NCBI GenBank assembly: GCA_037951105.1
Contig: JBAMJV010009471.1
Location: 1-64,000, forward strand
Reading direction: 5' to 3'
Origin: Echinarachnius parma
Taxonomy: Eukaryota; Echinodermata; Echinoidea; Clypeasteroida; Echinarachniidae
DNA: 64,000 bases
Shown here: positions 30,277-48,100 of the stretch, piece after piece
Numbering within the stretch: the stretch's first letter is position 1
Layout of the letters: each line of letters starts with the position of its first letter
The notes under the pieces: generated by a model
Told to the model about the DNA's origin: nothing
The model's database searches: none
What the model saw: the letters and a program-made list of their open reading frames with translations, nothing else
Position numbers and translations under genes: made by a program

Positions 30277-33200
30277 ATGAGGACCATTCTGCTCCTCACG
30301 GTCGTTGCTATGGCAACGGCCAGACTGGCTCCTCTACTCACAGTCGATGACAACATCCCGGGAAGTTACATCGTCAAACTAAAGGTACGGAAACAAAACA
30401 CGACCCGACGTGTAACAAGTTTGGAAACTTGAATTTGATTGTTCTCGTTTGTTATGAATCTAATTCATAGCAGCTGCTGAAAGACGCACAATTCTGATTG
30501 TATAATTACACATGCAGTTGTTGTATACATACGTTTGATATAATGCTGGTCCTGGATGCCTTTGAAGGACAGTCATTTCCAAATTTTGGGGTGGGTGTTT
30601 CCGTTGCTTTTTTTAATCCATGAGAGTTAAATGAATAGAACAGTTTTGGTCAAACAGTATATTATTAACTCAAACGTGTAAGTTATCACGTGTAAGAGTT
30701 ATGTTTCAATGATGTTTGAATGGTAGTAAAACTGATAAACTGTTAAGTTACAGGGATGTTTTTCATTCAAAAAGCAGCCAACTACACAAGAGGGTGCCCT
30801 TAATTAAACCTCAAGTTTCAACCAATTTAATTTAAAAAATGTGAATGTGATCTTTGGTTAAAACAAATATTCAATAGAGAGATCATCAAAACAAGTTAAC
30901 ACAGACATTTTGGTATATTTTCTGAAAATATGTAGGATTTGTTTATATTTGTTTATATTATTGATGAAAGTTGGTCCCTAACATTTATTCTAATCAAAAT
31001 CAATATACTTAACAATATTTAAGCTTTTTCTGAACCAATTTTGATCAAACAAAGCTTATCCTGTCCTTCAAATTGTGCGATCTTTCAAATTTAACACTAA
31101 GTTTTTCATTATCCCGCAAAACAATATTTCCCGGACGCACTCAAAATCAAAACTTAACTACCCCGTTAAGAACATTTTAGTAAAGACGTATACATGAGAA
31201 ATTGATTGGTCCTTCTGACGGATTCACTTCAGATCGTTTCCATTGAGTACGATTCCATGGAGTTCGTTTTTGTATGTTTATAAGATAACTTTGTTGAAAT
31301 TTGTTGAAACAATATTCATGAGGGTAATACACCAAGTTTTTGTTTAAACGGTACAAGCCTCGGCCAGTACTCTCTATTATTTATTAAATCTTTAACCATT
31401 GATTGTATCCTATATATGCATGCATGATCTTCAAACCCACCTTTCCTGATAACTTGTCTTAATTAGAACTCTGAGGATTTCGTATTCTTGTCATTGGTTT
31501 CATTTTCAAAGATAGCTATCATGCAAAATAATAATGTATTAAATGTTGTGTCCTATCCTTTCCAACAGGCAGGATCCGTCGTGGATGCGACCATCAAGTC
31601 CATCACATCCGTAGCCGGAGCTCCCGGGGAGCTGGAGATCGGTCACACGTACACCACGGTTTTCCCGGGATTCTCCGCCCGACTGACGGATAGGATGCTA
31701 CGAAAGGTACTTGTTAAATATACAATCATGTACATTGTCTCTAGGCGCTGTGCACTATCATTTAGGTCCTTGAAACAATGTATCTTCTCTTTTGTGCACC
31801 ATCTCCACTCCCTGTGAGACATTCCTTCTGAGGATTTCACCTCCTAACGTGTCCCCAATCTTAATATGTTTGAAGAACGCCAACGTGTATTAAATTTGTC
31901 TTGCTGAAAGGCAATCGAAAGAGATGGACATACTCTTGTTTGAAACTCACAATCTAGAAGTTGGAATGCACACGCCATACCTATCGTAAATGCGCCGCGC
32001 CGTCATGATATAGCGGGCGATATTTAAAAAAAACACGTTGCACGGGTAACGCAATGCTAATCGGCACGCTGCACGCCCTGAAGCTTACGTACCAAAAGAT
32101 GATCCGTGCGTTGAGAAAGGTATAGGGCGGTCCCAAAATGTGAACTAGGCTAGTTTGTGCGAATGACATAACACTGATCCAGTTTGTGCAAGGCGTTCGC
32201 AATATGGTACGGCGTGTCTGATTATCCAATCCCAAGTACCTTTTATAATGACCTATACTCATTTTGCATTCATGTTCACAGCTGCGTGAAGCTGACGCCG
32301 TGGAGTATATCGAGGAGGATGGGGTTGCCTACGCCAATGAAGTCGCCTCTTGGGGTCTCGACCGCATCGACCAGCTCGCCCTCCCACTCGATGACGAATA
32401 CAGCCAGGTGCTCGGCGACGGTGCAGGCGCCAGCGTCTACGTCATCGACACCGGAATCAACATCGATCACGTCGATTACGCCGGGAGGTCGTTCCTCGCT
32501 TTCGATTCTTTTGGCGAAACGGTAAGCAAAGCCCCTAAAATCCCCTACGAACGAGATGTGGCAGATAACCGCAGATTGATGTGCGATACGAAATAGCACA
32601 GCCGCCGTATGCCAGATGGTCTTTTTGTTGGTATTTAGTTTTTATATTCCCAGACATGTTGTGCGTCGAAAGTCCAAATTATGTATTTATTACACATTTC
32701 GTTGATAAATAGGATCGTCCCAGTATGGCCATGCGGCTCAGTGTGCCTGATGTCAAGACAAAATTGTAATCATTTATACGTTTTTCGTTCCCGCTTTTTT
32801 CCATTTGCAGGGCGAGGACTGTAACGGGCATGGCAGCCACTGTTCGGGCACTGTAGCAGGCACACAATACGGGGTGGCCAAGGCGGCCAATGTGTATGGT
32901 GTCAGGGTTCTTGGTTGCACAGGATCGGGTTCATGGGCCGGTGTCATCGCAGGTACGACCATTAACCCATCAATGACGATGGCCCACATAGTTGTGGTTT
33001 GTTAGTCCTACATTTGATCAAGAATATAACAAGTTGCATAAAGTGTAAGGAGAACGAGCACACATTTCTCTATTTTTTAGCCCAATTGTGTTACTGTACC
33101 CTACCTCCTTTCATTATGTTTGTAATGCTTTTTAATAGTGCACATCGTTATAATTTAGGAAAATCTTTAAATTAGCAACACACTGTCACATTTTCAAATT

Positions 33201-45181: not shown

Positions 45182-48100
45182 ATGGAAGGCGTTCAGTTCT
45201 CAAGAAAGAAACTTCCACGTTGTGATCAGATGAGCCTTACCAGGAGGGCTACTCTAGCCCGGAGGATGGGGTGCGCGAGAGGGCCCAGGTGGGTGTCGTG
45301 TCTCGTGGCAGGTGCATTTCTGATTCTGGTTGTGGTATACCATGCTATCGGTGAGTGCAACTGAATTACACTTTTTTAGAAGGCGGGTACATGAGGGAGG
45401 TTTTTGATACCATCGGTATCAGTAACTTTCATGGTGTGGCCTTATTGAGGTTTTGGTGGATTGCATGTGTCGTGGCAGGTGCATGCAATGCTGATTCTAG
45501 TTGTGGTACACGATAGGTGAGTGTAACTTAATGACACTGGTTTAAACGGCGGAATGAGGGAGGTTTTTCTTGTTTTTAATACCATCAATAAAAGTAATTT
45601 TCCTAACTGTTCCAAATTGTGGTCTAGATGATATTTGGTAAATGGGAGTGGATCATGTCATTGTATTGTTGAAGGTGAAATGATAATTCTGCTAGGTAAG
45701 TACAACAAATTACACAAGATTTAAGAATGGGGTGGGGTTCAGGAGTAGTTTACGTTAATCATGTGAGGGGGTCAAGTGGGTTGTGTGTGTTGTTGAACTT
45801 GGTGTAATTACATTTTGTTTACGGGTTTCCATGCAATATCAATGTTAAGATTTACATTATTCGTTTTGTTTACACATGCAGAATATTCAGCTCGAGTAGA
45901 GGACTGTGAGAAAGAATGTGCAGAAAAGCGACTCGCCGAGAACACCGAGTCTCAAATTCAACAGTACGTTTACTTGTACATGTTATTAAAATTGTTTTGT
46001 CAAATGTTGATAATTTATAGGATTAGCAATTTCCGCTTTTTGCGAGCTCCATTTCAATCAAATAGGGATCAAATATCTTGTTAACTCTTTTTGTTTATTT
46101 TATTTTGGTATAATTATGTTGATACATTAATTGTTTTCGTTCACTTATTCATTCATTCATGTTTTATATTCATTTATTAACAATTTTGGTTTTCCCTCTT
46201 TCATTTTCGGCTGGGTTGGGGTGTACGGACCACATTAAGTCCTCTGTAAGCATGGTAAGAAGTCGTGATAGATTATTTTTCTCATTTGGCTAGAATCGTT
46301 CTTTTATACGTTCTTGTATACGCATATATTGGTCTTAAATGTATAGTAAAATCCCGGCTTTGATTCAGGTTTATAGCTATGAATATGTGCCTATATTGAT
46401 ATACCACACTCTTTTTTCAAAGAAATCCTTAAAGGGATAGTTGAGTTTTGGTAGAGAGGGCGCTACACGTGCCAAATTTATTTTTTGCGAGATAATGAAA
46501 AACTGAGTGTCACAATCGAAAGAACATACAATTTTAATGACAGAATAAACTTTATTTAATCAAAATCGGTTCAGAAATGGCTGAAATATCCATAAACATA
46601 CCTATTTGTAATAAATGTGGGGCCCCACACTTATTCGATAATTTTGAACCAGCCGTTAAAAAATTCAAAAAAATGCTTCCTCTTTTCAAAAAGATGAGTG
46701 TTTACATAGCGCCCTCTTGAGTTTTAACGGCTCTTTTAAAATGATAACAGGATCTTTCCTAAGGCATTTGTAATTGTGTATTCCTTTCGAGTTATAACTA
46801 TTAGTTTGTAATGTAATGATGTATGTTTTGGTTACTAAAATTCAGTCTGACTAAAACTGTACTCTCCTTACCAAAACTCAACTATCCCTTTAAGTTGGGC
46901 AAAAAAGGTAAATTTCATGCCACTTTTTTGTTTTTTTCGCATCGGCGTTCCATACTCCTAAAAAAGTTATTTATAGCGGAGCGCGCGCGTGTGTACGATA
47001 CTACTTCTATGGTACGTGCCCATCGGGTCATGATGTCACATGAGGATCACAACACGGAGTTCACAGTTCGAATGTGCATGGTTTACATTCAAAGTCTTTG
47101 ACTTACTAGTAAAACAAACTCGTTTTTACTTGGAAATTGAGGCTTAACTGAAATGCCTAAGAAATGCAGTGTAGCAGGATGCAGCAACACATCTCAGTGT
47201 TGATCCTCCATGATATAAACTTAACAAATGTTTGCAAATATTGAAAACAATCGAAATAATATCTCTCCGTCAACGTGAGTAGATGTACTCAGCGTGTACG
47301 TCTACTGCGATTGTCCTTATGTGACGCATGGGTGTCGATACTTACGTAATACCCATTCATCAGGGGGGTATGAATGAATAGATCACCCCCCTGATGAATG
47401 GGTATCAATGACAGATCGACGCCCATGATGTGACGTCACAAAGATGACGTCATTTTTCTTTGCCCGGACTAAATTTGTTTACGGGCGTTCCTAAAGTGAA
47501 TTTACAAGTTGATTTTTGTTTATTTTATGAGGAAAATATGTTTTTATTAGTAATCTTCCTGAAAATCTACCTTAGATACAGTAAAACACAATTTTTAGGT
47601 AGTTTTCTAGTCTGTGGAGCTTTAACACCTGTAAATGTCTAACTCCACAAAACTTACTTTCAGCTTCCACATTTCTCTATATCTATCATTGATAATCATT
47701 CAGCTCAAGAGCGTCTACAGATGGTCATAAACGTCACAAGCGTCATACTGTAATTAGTTATAAAAGCTGAAGCAAATTTTCGCCTTTTTAACCAGGAAAG
47801 CAGTGTTCTTTTTTTAATGAGACTTTCACATATCATGCAGACATATCTTACAATGATTTTGGTATAGAATATAAGTCTCAAATGTCATTTTGGGCAATAT
47901 CTGACACTTTACAGGTGCACCCTTAATGCAGTAGGAGGGCGAGATATTTACACGATTAGCGGTATTTGCACCCCTTTTTATATTAAAGGGATATGAGTTC
48001 TGGTAAAGAGAATACAGTTTTGGTCAAACTGAATTTTAGTAGCCAAAACCTTCACCATTACATTGCAAATTAATAGTTATAACTCCACCATGCTCGAAAT

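Follow-up and report, generated by a model that had tools for sequence, protein, structure and literature searches.

Two neighboring genes in a stretch of the Echinarachnius parma genome, a subtilisin-type protease and a sulfotransferase, carry copies of their own exon ends in the sequence that follows those exons, raising the question of whether exon 3′ edges are singled out for copying in this genome. The stretch, called the window here, comprises 64,000 nucleotides (positions 1 to 64,000 of contig JBAMJV010009471.1, GenBank assembly GCA_037951105.1; 1.2 Gb in 14,790 contigs). A preliminary description of the window had listed four such places, namely the 3′ ends of protease exons 4 and 6, the last protease exon, and sulfotransferase exon 1, and had taken their shared polarity as a sign of one local mechanism or of a tendency to retain donor-like sequence. 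The analysis reported here indicates that the four places are quite probably local tandem duplications that span exon ends by position and are samples of a genome-wide process, with no need for a mechanism tied to exon edges.

Tandem Copies of Exon Ends in Two Neighboring Genes

The protease gene consists of 11 exons (30277-40105), with its Peptidase_S8 and CUB exons above and its I9 exon below the Pfam cut-offs; the sulfotransferase gene begins at ∼45182 and matches Sulfotransfer_2 under the cut-off (E = 0.0095). All 15 exons of the two genes were compared with their upstream and downstream flanks of up to 1.5 kb (30 tests), and Smith-Waterman scores were judged against 200 dinucleotide shuffles per flank; window positions 30001-41800 (protease) and 44801-48000 (sulfotransferase) were also compared with themselves. 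Coordinates of the resulting features are collected in Table 1.

The final 52-63 bases of protease exon 4 were found again at 33411-33461 (46/51 identical) and from 33577, with a score of 41 against a shuffled mean of 10.5 (z = 21.7; 0/200 shuffles). The best-ranked upstream match among the 15 exons, also in exon 4, had a score of 15 (2/200 shuffles) and was internal, off the edge. The two downstream copies are spaced 510 and 687 bases from the exon, and later units are ∼175 bases apart; the 510-base spacing (∼175 bases plus an insertion) arose because a dispersed element at 32975-33300 splits the first unit. The array is thus made of three ∼175-base units, in which exon parts are 80-90% identical and intron parts less so, and separate copying events at 510 and 687 bases were rejected because the inserted element accounts for the spacing. 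A first search of the genome gave 1,772 candidate places for the element; 40 of these were scored, with 56 matches. The element also resembles sequence in one of the sampled stretches described below (L025). In sulfotransferase exon 1, positions 45288-45451 match 45455-45623 at a period of 167 (127/155 identical), and the downstream match of the exon was likewise beyond all shuffles (score 33, z = 13.7, 0/200).

The other two places were weaker in the flank test. The last protease exon by itself scored 17 against its downstream flank (z = 3.4, 2/200 shuffles), but the array as a whole is clear (E = 4.7e-167), with successive spacings of 312, 248, 303, and 279 bases. Exon 6 gave a downstream match of 17/18 bases at a spacing of 116 (score 16, z = 2.7, 4/200 shuffles), which is unconvincing alone among 30 tests. 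The copying of four exon 3′ ends put forward in the preliminary description therefore stands for exon 4 and sulfotransferase exon 1, holds for the last exon at the level of the array, and is marginal for exon 6 on the window alone; its proposed check against shuffled flanks was passed by the first two, which beat 200/200 shuffles. Its periods of 115-310 bases agree with those between the later exon 4 units and with those of the sulfotransferase and exon 6 copies, but not with the two spacings from exon 4 itself, and the decay of copies into intron or untranslated region (UTR) that it had noted is borne out by the decayed state of the arrays.

Evidence From a Collinear Contig and Paralogs

Contig C10750 (positions 70001-100000, stretch L008) is collinear with the window across both genes, with introns mostly 86-97% identical, and probably represents the other haplotype, although it may instead be a recent duplicate. 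Both contigs have the arrays of exon 4, the last exon, and the sulfotransferase, so these are not assembly errors. Copy number does not differ between the contigs in the exon 4 and sulfotransferase arrays; in the last-exon array, by comparison, there are four downstream marker copies in the window and five in C10750.

Exon 6 differs more strongly. In C10750 it has a clear 3′-edge copy (96/112 identical, spacing 214, 0/200 shuffles), and the exon itself is 86.5% identical to that of the window, compared with 96-100% for the other ten protease exons. The decayed edge copy lies 208-214 bases downstream and is followed by intron sequence that shares 159/167 bases with the intron that follows exon 6 in the window; because C10750 has both an extra edge copy and the matching intron behind it, the two contigs differ in exon 6 duplication. 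As a separate observation, the segment from exon 4 to exon 6 (window 32758-35256) is only ∼86-87% identical to C10750, versus ∼95% on both sides, and perhaps represents a conversion tract or an old polymorphism; within exon 6, several amino-acid differences between the contigs fall near the presumed catalytic-serine stretch.

A paralogous protease, 80% identical in exon 4, is encoded on contig C4901 and at a second place on C10750. Neither the exon 4 array nor the last-exon unit was found in this paralog, and consequently both arose after the paralogs split or were lost there. The paralog's exon 6 does have a 3′-edge copy, which shares paralog-specific bases and thereby suggests an independent origin. 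In its last exon, the 5′ edge is copied upstream (90/98 identical, 0/200 shuffles); the copied segment includes intron tail, AG, and exon head, with 172/199 bases identical between 13622-13824 and 13962-14168 of the oriented C4901 stretch. The earlier statement that copies lie only downstream thus describes the matches in the two window genes, but does not extend to the paralog. No new intron position was seen in any of these genes: C10750 and paralog exons match the window exons where covered (exon 10 partially in the paralogs, and with no match to exons 10-11 in contig C1840).

Local Tandem Arrays Are Common in the Sampled Genome

The frequency of such arrays was estimated from twenty 10-kb stretches (L015-L034) drawn without regard to content, 16 from contig starts and four from the window's contig, with 5,000 bases of N in total. 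These contained 47 local tandem arrays and the window 13; together, the 60 arrays cover 12.9% of 259 kb, or approximately one array per 4 kb, with about a fifth of the coverage contributed by a single 7.4 kb satellite stretch (L021). Dinucleotide-shuffled sequence yielded no arrays (one shuffle of each stretch). The smallest spacing per array had a median of 174 bases, with many at 100-250; similar sequence was present in other sampled stretches for 32 of the 60 arrays and absent from them for 28, and arrays were common in sequence without recognized exons. The satellite stretch itself (L021, 1-7404) is mostly a satellite-like array with a smallest spacing of 200.

In the window, where arrays cover 10.4% of the sequence, rotation of the exon edges over the arrays gave 2.4 expected hits versus three observed (P = 0.44); for 3′ edges alone, 1.2 were expected and three seen (P = 0.10), and for 5′ edges 1.2 and none (P = 0.27). 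Since the array background is frequent and edge hits are near random placement, some edge-spanning arrays are to be expected in this genome.

We therefore favor an account in which units of ∼116-312 bases are copied head to tail, possibly through slippage or template switching in the first instance, and span an exon end by virtue of their position. Unequal exchange or slippage would then alter copy number; selection would hold the copy with the functional exon end, whose first donor is presumably used as normal, and the spare copies decay in the intron or 3′ flank. The spares lie downstream by geometry, as duplication of a 3′ edge can place them nowhere else. In this respect, the one local mechanism proposed earlier is retained as one kind of process (tandem duplication, copy-number change, and decay), but the polarity is no proof of directional copying.

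Polarity of the Duplicated Edges

“Only downstream” and “3′ edges only” are a single fact, because duplication of a 3′ edge leaves the spare downstream and duplication of a 5′ edge leaves it upstream; the informative comparison is therefore how often each edge is duplicated. A sample of 33 exons was gathered from ∼300 kb of sequence: 15 from the window genes, 11 from the paralog, three from a transporter, two from a peroxidase, and one each with a death domain and an immunoglobulin-like (Ig-like) domain. It combines the 15 window exons with 17 of 30 further tested exons and the Ig-like exon, which came from a survey of coding segments; the 13 exons of C10750 were set aside as non-independent. 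Several members fall below Pfam cut-offs, namely transporter exon 1 (MFS_1, E = 0.00014), the Ig-like exon (Ig_2, 0.00021), the death-domain exon (0.0089), and sulfotransferase exon 4 (0.0095); Pfam recognized nothing in sulfotransferase exon 3, peroxidase exon 1, or transporter exons 2 and 3. Marginal upstream matches without edge contact were omitted, specifically those of window exon 4 (2/200), paralog exon 5 (1/200), and C10750 exon 4 (3/200).

Several results weigh against the favored account. Eight 3′ edges and one 5′ edge lay in arrays (two-sided P = 0.039; Fisher, 0.027). The proportion of 3′ edges (8/33) exceeds array coverage (P = 0.018 at 10.4% coverage, 0.055 at 12.9%), and that of 5′ edges (1/33) is somewhat below it (P = 0.13 and 0.06, respectively). 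Self-comparison of the two gene regions gave three repeat clusters, all three of which start in an exon end, and this is the strongest point for the reading in the preliminary description. The 3′-edge copy of paralog exon 6, moreover, matches part of its period, so that duplication of a whole unit is not demonstrated for every case. If the 3′ lean is real, random placement with a neutral fate is an incomplete account.

One way to complete it is selection on splicing, under which mutation would be random but survival would not: the true donor is transcribed before a spare one, which would be harmless, and a spare acceptor precedes the true one, may be misused, and would be removed. On this reading, duplications of 3′ edges would outnumber those of 5′ edges severalfold, with no direction in the copying itself, because an additional donor would disturb splicing less than an additional acceptor. 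Besides the 8-to-1 count and its excess over coverage, the reading draws on exons outside the earlier selection (four 3′ edges versus one 5′ edge among 18) and on a peroxidase exon (An_peroxidase, E = 9.6e-9; L024:1444-1622, − strand), where a 46-base unit is repeated 3.8 times across the 3′ edge (92% match) with GTAAAC in all four units seen. The adjoining coding-like exon (peroxidase exon 1) also has its own end copied downstream; the copy stops 33 bases before the end of the open segment, and that it spans the donor is a reading of the alignment. Nor does the method favor one direction. Coding-potential prediction in random sequence gave few Pfam-supported segments and so served solely as a direction-neutral control, in which 97 coding-like segments, most of uncertain status, had 10 upstream matches at the 5′ edge and 10 downstream matches at the 3′ edge (gap ≤12); confirmed exons accounted for one of the former and four of the latter. 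Against this reading, the sample is small and partly dependent: four of the eight 3′-edge cases had been picked in advance by the preliminary description, exon 6 and the last exon are each counted in two paralogs, and the ratio becomes 6 to 1 without the two transcript ends (P = 0.125) and 5 to 1 with exon 6 counted once (P = 0.22). The portions of the published lancelet and potato accounts used below also include 5′ edges. Selection on splicing as the source of a true bias is a minority possibility in our estimate, and the claim of a severalfold excess of 3′ duplications on that ground is correspondingly tentative; the lean is suggestive but unproven, and falls short of a finding. If the reading is true, donor-spanning tandem duplication would continually and asymmetrically supply decoy splice sites and replacement exon tails, and the differing copies of exon 6 in the window and C10750 offer a hint of the latter.

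A mutational process with a built-in direction, for instance template switching during replication that is linked to exon ends, would copy 3′ edges only, in keeping with all four window cases and with the three clusters that start in exon ends. It was rejected, and is very improbable, on the grounds that direction is set by geometry and not by copying and that the paralog has a 5′-edge case; arrays are also common without recognized exons, and the window edges are not significantly enriched in the rotation test.

The copies might alternatively have been kept as useful intronic donor-like sites, for example for binding of the U1 small nuclear ribonucleoprotein. The two sulfotransferase copies do keep GTGAGT and GTAAGT, and the four peroxidase units their GTAAAC, but the latter are near-identical throughout. 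Individual copies match the donor at four to eight of its nine positions, a level that does not surpass the match on the neighboring exon side (∼77-93%), and 6/10 copies still have GT (7/11 with the C10750 sulfotransferase copy); the first exon 4 copy and the weak exon 6 copy are among those that have lost it. There is no sign of selective donor retention, and the tendency to retain donor-like sequence suggested earlier was accordingly rejected, leaving such a function only a slight chance. Chance similarity or assembly error, for which the weak exon 6 match in the window might speak, is scarcely credible given that no shuffle (0/200) equaled the exon 4 or the sulfotransferase exon 1 match and that C10750 has both arrays.

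Features of the Window and Its Surroundings

Table 1. Positions of the exons, array units, and inserted element in the window.
Feature	Position	Strand	Evidence
Protease exon 4	32811..32952	+	Peptidase_S8, E = 5.2e-6
Exon 4 array unit 1, first part: exon tail, donor GTACGA, intron start	32890..32973	+	Self-comparison, alignment
Dispersed element inside exon 4 array unit 1	32975..33300	.	Genome search; insertion ends approximate
Exon 4 array unit 1, remainder, intronic; matches 33476 onwards at period 175	33301..33410	+	Self-comparison
Exon 4 array unit 2; exon part 46/51 identical; donor GT lost	33411..33576	+	Alignment
Exon 4 array unit 3; donor GTATGA present	33577..33756	+	Alignment
Protease exon 6	35079..35249	+	Peptidase_S8, E = 1.9e-11
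Weak copy of exon 6 3′ edge (source 35232-35296); core 17/18	35348..35415	+	4/200 shuffles
Protease last exon, ends at stop codon	39938..40105	+	CUB, E = 6.2e-13
3′ UTR/downstream array; marker copies at 40072 (exon tail), 40384, 40632, 40935, 41214	40072..41525	+	Self-comparison
Sulfotransferase exon 1 (membrane anchor by reading; putative start), donor GTGAGT at 45351	45182..45350	+	Open reading frame reading, flank test
Sulfotransferase array unit 1 (exon tail, donor, intron start)	45288..45454	+	Self-comparison, alignment
Sulfotransferase array unit 2, period 167, donor GTGAGT kept	45455..45630	+	Self-comparison, alignment
Third-unit remnant around GTAAGT donor, 35/42, ∼45 bases	45690..45733	+	Alignment

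Other repeats were observed in and around the two genes. The intron after protease exon 8 contains a long inverted repeat (36815-37481) with 120-base arms that are 96% complementary and 427 bases apart, and with three smaller nested pairs. At 37929-38205, an element resembling by eye a transfer RNA-derived short interspersed nuclear element is 86% identical to a place in contig C1840 and had no Rfam match at the gathering score. Dispersed short elements, by eye like miniature inverted-repeat transposable elements, are present in two copies each in the window (42250-42627 and 46430-46894; 34736-34893 and 43280-43677) and also in the paralog contigs. Near opposite ends of the window, similar coding fragments at 6869-7222 and 63583-63930 (− strand) are presumably the end of a reverse-transcriptase frame of a long interspersed nuclear element.

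A 930-base mitochondrial piece of COX1 has AAA at an Asn conserved in animal COX1 (PRMNN), ATA at Ile, TGA at Trp, and AGA at Ser, and suggests a mitochondrial code of the echinoderm (or hemichordate) type; resemblance of the encoded protein would make a sea urchin likely.

Relation to Known Exon-Boundary Repeats

Comparable structures have been described in lancelets (amphioxus) as “mirages”, that is, minisatellite-like tandem duplications of exon/intron boundaries. In the portions of these accounts that we draw on, they occur in the globin genes BflGb6 and BflGb9 and, by citation, in Adh3 with 10-72 base units, the globin examples including a 5′-boundary case with six and three units in two haplotypes as well as a 3′-boundary case (PMC3087553), and PGBD5 has been added to the list, with troponin C cited (PMC3902484). 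Mirage units are reported there as 10-160 bases long, at 5′ and 3′ boundaries, with splice signals in many but not all copies (PMC3087553, PMC3902484). Like the structures in this study, mirages thus comprise several tandem units across an exon edge and differ in copy number between haplotypes.

Here, units span the exon/intron boundary at exon 4, at exon 6 of C10750, and at sulfotransferase exon 1; copies are multiple and head to tail (three units in exon 4, two and a remnant in the sulfotransferase); a haplotype difference in length is provided by the extra exon 6 copy in C10750, the presumed other haplotype; and both boundaries can be duplicated, as illustrated by the 5′ edge of the paralog's last exon. 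The structures therefore have the testable features of mirages, except for the array at the last exon; since that exon ends in a stop codon rather than at a splice site, its array is no strict mirage. The 46-base peroxidase array presents the very picture described for lancelets. In contrast to the lancelet examples, units here are mostly longer (46-312 bases), most arrays are decayed, and the host has a mitochondrial code of the echinoderm/hemichordate type. Mirages reportedly leave normal splicing intact, and the Adh3 mirage is reportedly unstable in somatic tissue. The Rogers model, cited in PMC3087553, derives intron gain from tandem duplication.

In potato, a tandem duplication over an intron-exon (5′) edge in a working gene is described as having given rise to a new intron (PMC4974935); as far as that account goes, the present cases are alike in crossing an exon edge of a working gene, but differ in that no new intron was seen. 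Short local duplications are portrayed as a common background process in fly regulatory modules (PMC3188502), where the study concerns neighboring binding sites <50 bases apart, as opposed to the exon edges considered here. Among the literature matches listed, no title or beginning of an abstract dealt with exon-edge repeats in echinoderms, which is no proof of their absence; those matches did include sea urchin work on repeats in the Sp185/333 genes.

With the arrays described here, mirage-like repeats at exon boundaries, known from lancelets, are also seen in an echinoderm-like genome, and the background rate of 60 arrays in 259 kb sets the bar for any claim of exon-edge duplication. The relative frequency of 3′- and 5′-edge duplications, in turn, matters for the origin of decoy sites within introns and of new introns.

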